From contig NZ_JAHDIG010000004.1 in assembly GCF_020630935.1 (NCBI RefSeq), positions 1 through 64,000 on the forward strand: 64,000 nucleotides of DNA. Reading direction: 5' to 3'. Positions 6,909 through 8,973 of the stretch are shown in pieces. The stretch comes from Bernardetia sp. (GTDB lineage Bacteria > Bacteroidota > Bacteroidia > Cytophagales > Bernardetiaceae). A model generated the notes under the pieces. That model saw nothing but the letters and a program-made list of their open reading frames with translations, ran no database searches and had not been told where the DNA came from. Numbering within the stretch: position 1 is the first letter of the stretch; each line of letters opens with the position of its first letter. Made by a program: the position numbers and the translations under genes.

Positions 6909-7023
6909 AGGAGTACATCAAAATTATTTGAAGAAAAAAACCTTATTCGTATATCAAATAAGGTCGCAAATTTCGTGTTTTTGAAGCGAAATAGAAAATA
7001 TAAAGAAAAATAAAGGTTGGAAA

Positions 7024-8118
7024 TCAACTTTTTTCTAAAAAAATAACGTCATGTGCTTCTTGAATATCTGGAAATTCTAATCTGTTGTGCATCTCCCAAA
7101 TCTTTTTGGTGGGTACAATATCGCTTTCTTCTCTACTGCGATTGTCTTTTACAAGTTGGTTGATATTTTTGTGTAGAAAAACAATTTTAATTTTAGGTTT
7201 GTAGGGAAGCCATATCGAAATCAGACTTCCTCTGACTTGTTTTGTGAGGTTGGTAGCGTTCCAAATGAAAGACTGTTTTTTTCTACAATATTCTCTACTT
7301 CGTTCTTTTGCCTCTTGAATGATTTTTCCTTGATTATCAGTAGGTTTTATTTTGAGTTCTTTTCTCAAATCATCCATCGAAACGATAGGCAAGTCTTCAT
7401 TCATTTCTACAATATAACTATCCTTTCCACTAGCAGGAAGCCCACAAAGCATCGTAATTTCAAAGTCATAGTCTTGGTAGAGTTGTGTATTGGGAAAGTT
7501 GTTGTCTTTTCTAAAATATTCAAACCTGTCGTAATTAGAATGAAAGGCATAAGGATTATCAAAACAATCGTTTTCTACTCCCAATTCTTTAAAAACTTCC
7601 AAACGATATTGCCATTCTTCCCAATCTGGACAAATTCGTCCTCCTAAATCAGCCTTTCCAAAAGCATACAACCATTTGTTGTTCGATAAAAGACTGGTCA
7701 GAATCATGCTTTTCTGTGGATTGTCCTTTGCGTATGCCCAAAACGGATAGCCATGATAAAAAATAGTCTGAAAGACTTTATATATCGTATCAAAATCATA
7801 GTTTTCTTTGTCTAAAATCTGCCTTGTAAGTTGTGCGCCCCTGCGTGCGTGGCTAGGGTGGCTAATGCTTCCATCTGGTTCGTGAGTAAGAGTGTGAGGT
7901 TTGCAAATATCGTGAAACAAGACCGTTAGAAATAAAATATCTTGTTCTGTTTTGGAAAAAGTGTTCCATTCTTCTGTTTTCAAAATAGAATCCAAAACCA
8001 TTTGTGTATGTGTATAAACATCTCCTTCTGCATGTTTGATAGAGTCTTGCATCGTATTTTTCATATCCTCAAACAAGGAGCTGTATTTTTTTACCAGTTC
8101 AAAATCTTCTAGTTTCAT
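7024..8118 (-). CDS. HD-Pnk type bifunctional nucleic-acid end-healing enzyme
   Basis: The 364-residue protein has an N-terminal HD phosphohydrolase domain (H37, HD at 69-70, H122, D157) and a C-terminal P-loop kinase domain. The kinase part has GLPASGKDS at 226-234, a SMDD motif near 247-250, WNATN at 286-290 and a basic lid segment (DNRSREESD). This order and these motifs match the HD-Pnk family characterised from Runella slithyformis, which removes 2',3'-cyclic, 2' and 3' phosphates and phosphorylates 5'-OH ends, preparing broken RNA or DNA for sealing. The function here is inferred from the family. No ligase gene lies next to it. It is a single gene, divergent from ferritin. Confidence 0.8.
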   Translation of the reverse strand: MKLEDFELVKKYSSLFEDMKNTMQDSIKHAEGDVYTHTQMVLDSILKTEEWNTFSKTEQDILFLTVLFHDICKPHTLTHEPDGSISHPSHARRGAQLTRQILDKENYDFDTIYKVFQTIFYHGYPFWAYAKDNPQKSMILTSLLSNNKWLYAFGKADLGGRICPDWEEWQYRLEVFKELGVENDCFDNPYAFHSNYDRFEYFRKDNNFPNTQLYQDYDFEITMLCGLPASGKDSYIVEMNEDLPIVSMDDLRKELKIKPTDNQGKIIQEAKERSREYCRKKQSFIWNATNLTKQVRGSLISIWLPYKPKIKIVFLHKNINQLVKDNRSREESDIVPTKKIWEMHNRLEFPDIQEAHDVIFLEKS

Positions 8119-8241
8119 TATCTTTTTATTTTGACTAATTCTAATTTTATTTTTTTAGTATTGCTTTCAAAACAAATCCTTTCTATTATTGATTCCGTTA
8201 TAAGGGAAAAAGTAATAAAAACGTTAGAGTACAAAAAGTTA

Positions 8242-8306
8242 TTGGTGTTGCTAAACTAAAACACCAACAAACAGTATTTTTCCCTGTTCTGTGTCTCGCA
8301 GAACAG
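8242..8306. repeat. Two tandem hairpins upstream of ferritin
   Basis: The first hairpin is TTGGTGTT/AACACCAA (8242-8249 with 8260-8267, 10-base loop). The second is CTGTTCTG/CAGAACAG (8284-8291 with 8299-8306, 7-base loop). The second closely resembles the stem of the terminator at 47878-47916. Neither has a T-tract on the strand of the adjacent genes, so they are not plain terminators. They could be leader structure or REP-type repeats. Confidence 0.5.
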
Positions 8307-8397
8307 TAAATATCTATTGATGAGTACTTTATAAAAATATATATTTACTTTTTAGCCTTTTATAAAAATAGACTTCAACATTAAAAAAATATAGACT

Positions 8398-8973
8398 ATG
8401 TCAAAGAACGGAGTTCAGAAAACAGTAGTAACGATGAAAACATCGATTACACAAGAGATGCAAAACCTTATCAATAAGCAAATTCAGCTAGAAGCTCGCT
8501 CTTCGTGGGCATATTTGGCTGCAGCTTCGTGGTGCGATAAGGAAGGTTATGTCAATTCGGCAAAATATCTCTACAACCACGCAGAAGAAGAACGCATGCA
8601 CATGATGAAATTCTTCGATTATCTAAATAATGCTGGTGGACATGCTCTTGCTCCAGAAATTACAGATTTGCGTTATAACTTCGATAAATTGAGAGAAGTT
8701 TTCGAAACGGCTCTAAAGCACGAAATCAAGGTTACTTTAGCTATCAATGATTTGGTAGATGCGTGTTTGAAAGCAAAAGATTTTGCTACGTTTCAGTTTT
8801 TGCAATGGTTTGTAAACGAGCAAAGAGAAGAAGAGGTAATTTCTCGTCGTGCTGTGGAGCTTTTCGATATTATTGGTGAAGAAGGACAGGGAATATGGCT
8901 TATAGACCAAGCTATCGGAAACTTAGAAAATGAAATAGCACAAATTGAAAGTCCTTCTGGTGAAGCAGAATAA
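8398..8973 (+). CDS. ftnA: Bacterial non-haem ferritin
   Basis: It is an iron-storage four-helix-bundle protein that oxidises Fe(II) and stores the mineral in a 24-subunit shell. Ferroxidase-centre residues are visible in QIQLEARSSWAY (E32), HAEEERMHMM (E and H near 65-68) and the later NEQREEE segment. The length of 191 residues is slightly above the family's 165-175 because of about 12 extra N-terminal residues. The start at 8398 has the A/T-rich upstream typical here, but the ATG at 8434 (MKTSITQEMQ) would give the usual family length. Hairpins lie in the leader, and no Fur-type operator was recognised with confidence. Confidence 0.93.
   Translation: MSKNGVQKTVVTMKTSITQEMQNLINKQIQLEARSSWAYLAAASWCDKEGYVNSAKYLYNHAEEERMHMMKFFDYLNNAGGHALAPEITDLRYNFDKLREVFETALKHEIKVTLAINDLVDACLKAKDFATFQFLQWFVNEQREEEVISRRAVELFDIIGEEGQGIWLIDQAIGNLENEIAQIESPSGEAE

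Follow-up and report, generated by a model that had tools for sequence, protein, structure and literature searches.

HD-Pnk of Bernardetia and its probable RNA ligase partner: a gene pair apparently split by an inversion and retained in the same genome

The enzyme of Runella slithyformis studied by Munir and Shuman in 2017 is said to be the exemplar of the HD-Pnk family, and its homologues reportedly often share their operon with the gene of a putative ATP-dependent ligase. In Deinococcus radiodurans, DRB0098, DRB0099 and DRB0100 form a radiation-induced operon, and the kinase activity of DRB0098 has been shown (PMC1997131). The 3'-phosphatase activity was not reduced in the DRB0098 HD mutants H81A and D82E, and a contaminant could not be excluded (PMC1997131). 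The ligase DRB0100 formed an AMP adduct yet joined none of the DNA or RNA tested, and together with DRB0098 and DRB0099 it gave no DNA ligation either; a blocked DNA nick could be healed and sealed by DRB0098 plus LigA (PMC1997131). The DRB0100 knockout is radiation-resistant (PMC1978522), and DRB0099 is a PARG whose substrates are ADP-ribosylated ends of nucleic acids (PMC11833690). According to its title, Schmier and Shuman 2018 (a reference in PMC9146567) ascribes to the Deinococcus HD-Pnk a role in radiation and mitomycin C resistance.

We analyzed positions 1 to 64,000 of contig NZ_JAHDIG010000004.1 of Bernardetia sp. (assembly GCF_020630935.1; genome G000, contig C4), and this whole stretch of 64,000 nucleotides is referred to as the window. 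A 364-aa open reading frame on the minus strand, beginning with ATG, occupies exactly the interval of the HD-Pnk gene given in Table 1. Orthologues from the same genus share 84-88% identity with the encoded protein. Between the window gene and its relatives, dN (0.07-0.10) is far below dS (1.3-1.6), and this pattern of substitution indicates that the gene is real and that purifying selection acts on it. The terminator-like hairpin downstream matches a consensus only, with one found against 0.5 expected in shuffled sequences. Counts of promoter consensus showed no excess over shuffles, and the Bacteroidetes -7 type promoter pattern was too loose for use. Neither HD-Pnk nor the ligase described below matched the PADLOC defence models. 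A phage origin of the gene was considered and is not evident, as annotated phages yielded a single full-length relative of 37% identity.

Table 1 Features of the HD-Pnk locus in the window and other RNA-repair genes of the same genome.
Feature	Location	Strand	Remarks
HD-Pnk gene	7024..8118	-	364 aa, ATG start; HD phosphoesterase (~residues 1-185) and P-loop polynucleotide kinase (~217-364)
HD domain	7564..8118	-	Residues 1-185; candidate metal ligands H37, H69, D70, H90, H122, D157
Kinase domain	7027..7470	-	Residues 217-364; P-loop GLPASGKDS, D249xxR252, R279, NATN 287-290, R296, R329
Terminator-like hairpin with T-run	6939..6965	-	Just 3' of HD-Pnk, ahead of CoaX
Intergenic region between HD-Pnk and divergent ferritin-like gene	8119..8397	.	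Inferred inversion breakpoint ~15-20 bp from the HD-Pnk ATG
Divergent ferritin-like gene	8398..8973	+	Marks the inversion junction; outside the system
Hen1-Pnkp	G000 C2, L024		
Rnl2-type ligase	G000 C1, L194		
Third RNA ligase	G000 C19, L195		
RtcB-like protein	G000 C35, L192		Matches part of the RtcB profile only
Tpt1	G000 C29, L193		
PARG	G000 C27, L202		

The N-terminal half of the protein carries an HD domain. Pfam HD aligned at residues 35-127 (4e-4, one bit below the cut-off), and NCBIfam matched the HD region of CCA enzymes (2e-12) and HDIG. Profile searches in Pfam, NCBIfam and PDB related the domain to the CCA/poly(A)-type tRNA nucleotidyltransferases. Residues 1-185 superposed on the HD region of the tRNA processing enzyme 3wfr_F (VIA Z 17.3), whose relatives 3wfo and 3wfp carry the name poly A polymerase. 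When ten diverse homologues were aligned, H37, H69-D70, H90, H122 and D157 were invariant. The pattern H..HD..H..H..D is intact in the window protein, with all six candidate metal ligands retained; their roles are assigned by conservation and the HD signature, rather than via a metal-bound structure.

The same profile searches related the C-terminal P-loop domain (AAA_33, residues 222-350, 5e-13) to Pnkp of Clostridium thermocellum, T4 Pnk and tRNA(Sec) kinase. G231-K232-D233, D249, R252, R279, N287-A-T-N290, R296 and R329 were invariant in the ten homologues. The AlphaFold2 model was confident (pLDDT 92, pTM 0.91), and its best fold matches were polynucleotide kinases: the C. thermocellum enzyme ranked first in Foldseek, and residues 217-364 gave VIA Z 17.0 with 4gp6 of that enzyme and 14.6 with T4 Pnk. 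L-seryl-tRNA(Sec) kinase was also reached by profile, with the best sequence E-value in one search, as was KTI12, and a PSTK or Kti12-like kinase would act on a small molecule or a tRNA instead of polynucleotide 5' ends. We consider this very improbable here: PSTK scored lower in VIA (Z 15.7) than the first-ranked C. thermocellum kinase, end healing suits both the fused HD phosphoesterase and the neighboring ligase, and kinase activity on polynucleotide 5'-OH ends has been demonstrated for the homologue DRB0098 (PMC1997131).

The protein thus combines an N-terminal HD domain and a C-terminal P-loop kinase with intact motifs on one chain, and its kinase fold is closest to the polynucleotide kinases. 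It has neither a metallophosphoesterase nor a PNKP ligase domain, which sets it apart from Pnkp/Hen1. The earlier note had proposed an HD plus P-loop kinase architecture from the HD, GLPASGKDS and NATN motifs; all are present with intact active sites, and full-length homology to the characterized DRB0098 bears out the assignment to the HD-Pnk family. The two outcomes that would have spoken against it, loss of the HD ligands and a better match to a different kinase family, did not occur. The window protein is a real, intact and ordinary bacterial HD-Pnk. As the family is already known, what is added here is the displaced yet co-retained ligase, which is a modest addition.

We clustered the neighbors of 92 HD-Pnk loci. 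One family dominated, an RNA ligase of ~235-265 aa that mostly lies directly beside HD-Pnk. This small RNA ligase (PF09414, DRB0100-like) occurred in the fetched stretch of 78 of the 80 loci from named genomes, usually immediately upstream. The two genes were within 150 bp of each other in 63 and within 500 bp in 74 of these 80 loci, and in one of the 78 ligase-positive loci the distance was 8.4 kb. The two loci without the ligase in the fetched stretch are Bernardetia L039 and L114, the latter cut by the contig end. The ligase gene is divergent from HD-Pnk in Sorangium, Polyangium and Minicystis. Long open reading frames in Sorangium and Polyangium had suggested ligase-HD-Pnk fusions; these were rejected, as the ligase lies on the opposite strand, divergent and ~200 bp off, and the extensions look like GC-rich artefacts. 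In L029, L031, L032 and L043, a second, Rnl2-type ligase was observed in the neighborhood of HD-Pnk and the first ligase; that of L029 has 335 aa and a T4_Rnl2_C domain.

Within the window, no ligase is adjacent to HD-Pnk, as the earlier note had stated. In tblastn, the partner ligase had no meaningful match anywhere in the window, and no ligase relic was found upstream of HD-Pnk. The description of the enzyme as stand-alone, however, does not suit a family that is regularly encoded beside a small RNA ligase, and the partner that had been called unknown can now be named. The usual, though not strictly defining, gene partner of HD-Pnk, a small ATP-dependent RNA/polynucleotide ligase, is encoded unlinked in the same genome on contig C6 (4376-5077). 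Its 234-aa reading frame is intact, the KxDG motif is kept, and it shares 75% identity with the orthologue in G001. The predicted fold is closest to the Naegleria RNA ligase and T4 Rnl2, and dN was 0.15-0.17 against a dS of 1.5-3.4. Purifying selection still acts on both HD-Pnk and the ligase after their separation.

Gene order in the genus accounts for the separation. The distance of HD-Pnk to the start of C4 is 7.0 kb and that of the ligase to the start of C6 is 4.4 kb; even with these contig ends joined, at least 11 kb would separate the two genes. In the single-contig genome G001 of the same genus, they are adjacent. The order there, with gene names assigned by reading the sequences, is DsbD-like, YbbR-like, ligase, HD-Pnk, CoaX and outer-membrane protein; on the other strand come Tsf, a small ORF, RpsB, RpsI and RplM, and these are followed by genes for ferritin and a transglutaminase-like protein. 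If the segment running from HD-Pnk through RplM is turned around, the ligase comes to lie beside RplM and HD-Pnk beside ferritin. The gene order of G004 is that of G001 after this inversion, plus one added gene. In G000, the C6 piece holds the ligase and the RplM to Tsf side, with a GNAT gene between the ligase and RplM, and the window piece holds the outer-membrane gene, CoaX, HD-Pnk and ferritin. Homology between the window and G001 stops at 8131-8139 and resumes at 8387, and that between C6 and G001 ends ~20 bp past the ligase stop codon, which places the breakpoint in the short intergenic gap between the two genes. An inversion with one breakpoint between ligase and HD-Pnk therefore apparently explains the split; a second one, parting Tsf from the outer-membrane gene, is needed for the arrangement in G000. 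We took adjacency as the ancestral state, since it is the prevailing arrangement elsewhere in the family.

Both genes were searched for in 291 genomes of the order. HD-Pnk was present in 45, and each of these also has the ligase; the ligase was present in 46, a single genome having it without HD-Pnk (Fisher 3e-52, a p-value that ignores phylogeny and operon linkage). Most informative are the genomes with an unlinked pair, and co-occurrence persists in these (G000, G002, G004, G006 and G504). Five Bernardetia genomes have an unlinked pair, of which G005 is fragmentary and G004 has the genes 8.4 kb apart; in the fragmented assemblies G452 and G565, the genes are on different contigs. G003, of the same genus, has neither. 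The mirror-tree distance correlation between HD-Pnk and ligase was 0.77, and permutations reached no more than 0.16. A distant ligase subtype (26% for L031) was found in L031, L032 and L043, which belong to the HD-Pnk clade of the window; the ligase thus seems exchangeable without loss of the pairing. A thin phylum-wide set of 395 genomes contained three with HD-Pnk, all with the ligase, and nine with the ligase only. These nine belong to one genus, g95 (G128, G131, G219 and others), and have a relative of the small ligase but no detected HD-Pnk. It is an even call, in our judgment, whether HD-Pnk and the ligase make up an obligate two-component repair system that is passed on and lost jointly even when unlinked, with a ligase replaceable by a distant subtype, and that stands beside Pnkp/Hen1 without replacing it.

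HD-Pnk and the ligase also occur, widely separated, on large plasmids of Pseudomonas, Bosea, Rhizobium and Miltoncostaea. On megaplasmids of 0.7-1.3 Mb (NZ_CP143488, NZ_CP016463, NZ_AP022849, NZ_CP140867, NZ_CP064357, NZ_CP032678 and NZ_CP031226), tens to hundreds of kb separate HD-Pnk from the small RNA ligase. The pair also occurs on some phage contigs. On phage contig L131 (6602-12659, 20048-20542), HD-Pnk is close to NAD synthase, the RNA-repair nucleotidyltransferase RlaP and a PARG-like stretch, and no partner of the small RNA ligase family was detected in the fetched stretch. PARG was considered as a conserved third member and rejected, as this was the only fetched locus besides Deinococcus with PARG nearby. 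The HD-Pnk-like protein of viral contig L160 (9980-11134) has the P-loop GLPASDKS, in which D replaces the conserved G before the lysine, and its kinase is possibly degenerate. A 1429-aa ORF on viral contig L157 (9188-13474) has a complete poly(A)/CCA-polymerase head, an RNA-binding and HD module and DUF192, and it matches GNAT weakly; further viral matches with HD only may be of this kind.

A search of G000 for RNA ligases, Tpt1 and RtcB, suggested in the earlier note, recovered several RNA ligases, Tpt1 and an RtcB-like protein (Table 1). The RNA-repair kit beside HD-Pnk is unusually full. Pnkp was found in 27 of the 45 HD-Pnk genomes versus 38 of the 246 others (odds ratio 8.2, ignoring phylogeny and linkage); co-occurrence above expectation indicates that one enzyme does not simply substitute for the other.

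We consider it likely that the bifunctional HD-Pnk heals ends which a dedicated ligase encoded on C6 then seals, and that an ancestral two-gene unit was split by inversion. HD-Pnk would convert 5'-OH and 3'-phosphate or 2',3'-cyclic phosphate ends into 5'-phosphate and 3'-OH. The HD domain would use a transition metal to take off the 3'/2' phosphate, and the 5'-OH would be phosphorylated by the C-terminal kinase. The healed ends, presumably of RNA rather than DNA in the main, would be joined by the small ATP-dependent RNA ligase. The ligase gene, followed by HD-Pnk, would once have formed one unit, which an inversion with one breakpoint between them would have split in the Bernardetia lineage. 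Against this reading stand the lack of ligation by DRB0100 and the undiminished 3'-phosphatase of the DRB0098 HD mutants (PMC1997131), the radiation resistance of the DRB0100 knockout (PMC1978522), and the other ligases of G000, which could use ends healed by HD-Pnk. These ligases invite another reading, in which HD-Pnk is a true orphan whose ends are sealed by Pnkp/Hen1, the Rnl2-type ligase or the C19 ligase and the C6 ligase has diverged towards a different function. The lack of linkage would agree with this, as would the partner ligase of G002 (L185:9037-9687), in which we observed a 22-residue in-frame gap upstream of motif IV relative to a 98% identical relative; the HD-Pnk of G002 is intact despite this gap. 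We regard the orphan explanation as improbable, since the C6 ligase keeps its motifs and a low dN relative to dS, and since HD-Pnk and the ligase are absent together in G003.

Action mainly in DNA strand-break repair, where the housekeeping DNA ligase would receive the ends from HD-Pnk and the small RNA ligase would be an independent second user, deserves more weight, and still seems doubtful to us. It draws on the radiation-induced operon of Deinococcus, on the healing and sealing of a blocked DNA nick by HD-Pnk and LigA (PMC1997131), and on the title of Schmier and Shuman 2018 (in PMC9146567). The same sources qualify the view that the damage is unknown: it is not wholly so for a family whose Deinococcus member is radiation-induced (PMC1997131) and is linked, by that title, to radiation and mitomycin C resistance (PMC9146567). 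In contrast, near-perfect co-inheritance with a protein of RNA ligase fold, even when unlinked, points to RNA, as do the pairing in phages and RlaP near one phage HD-Pnk. A dual role in RNA and DNA is possible.

Retention of the dedicated ligase on C6 would remove the puzzle of an orphan healing enzyme, as a likely sealing partner is named and placed in the same genome. Lineages with an unlinked but co-inherited pair are natural tests of joint working, and they matter because the Deinococcus ligase gave no ligation in vitro. Two complete heal-and-seal kits in one genome also allow their roles to be compared within one organism.

Among the known systems, the Runella slithyformis HD-Pnk, as described, has the architecture of the window protein and comes from the same phylum, and the operon with an ATP-dependent ligase reported for its homologues fits the loci described here. 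Bacterial Pnkp/Hen1 of the C. thermocellum type, of which a copy occurs in the same genome, shares the kinase fold and the heal-and-seal logic but joins a calcineurin-like phosphatase and its own ligase domain in one polypeptide. T4 Pnkp with Rnl1/Rnl2 likewise has the kinase fold and divides the labor between a healer and a separate ligase, whereas its domain order is reversed and a domain other than HD serves as its phosphatase (PMC1997131). Of the experimentally studied proteins recovered, DRB0098 was the nearest, with HD and kinase domains in the same order and 26% identity over 391 alignment columns (E 9e-23). Its H51, H81, D82, H107, H139, D173 and K277 correspond to H37, H69, D70, H90, H122, D157 and K232 of the window protein, and equivalents of D249, R252, R279, R296 and R329 are shared, while NATN reads DATT. 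DRB0100 is 35% identical to the partner ligase over 218 aa. Deinococcus has its genes for ligase, PARG and HD-Pnk directly side by side, whereas in the genome of the window the three are on separate contigs.
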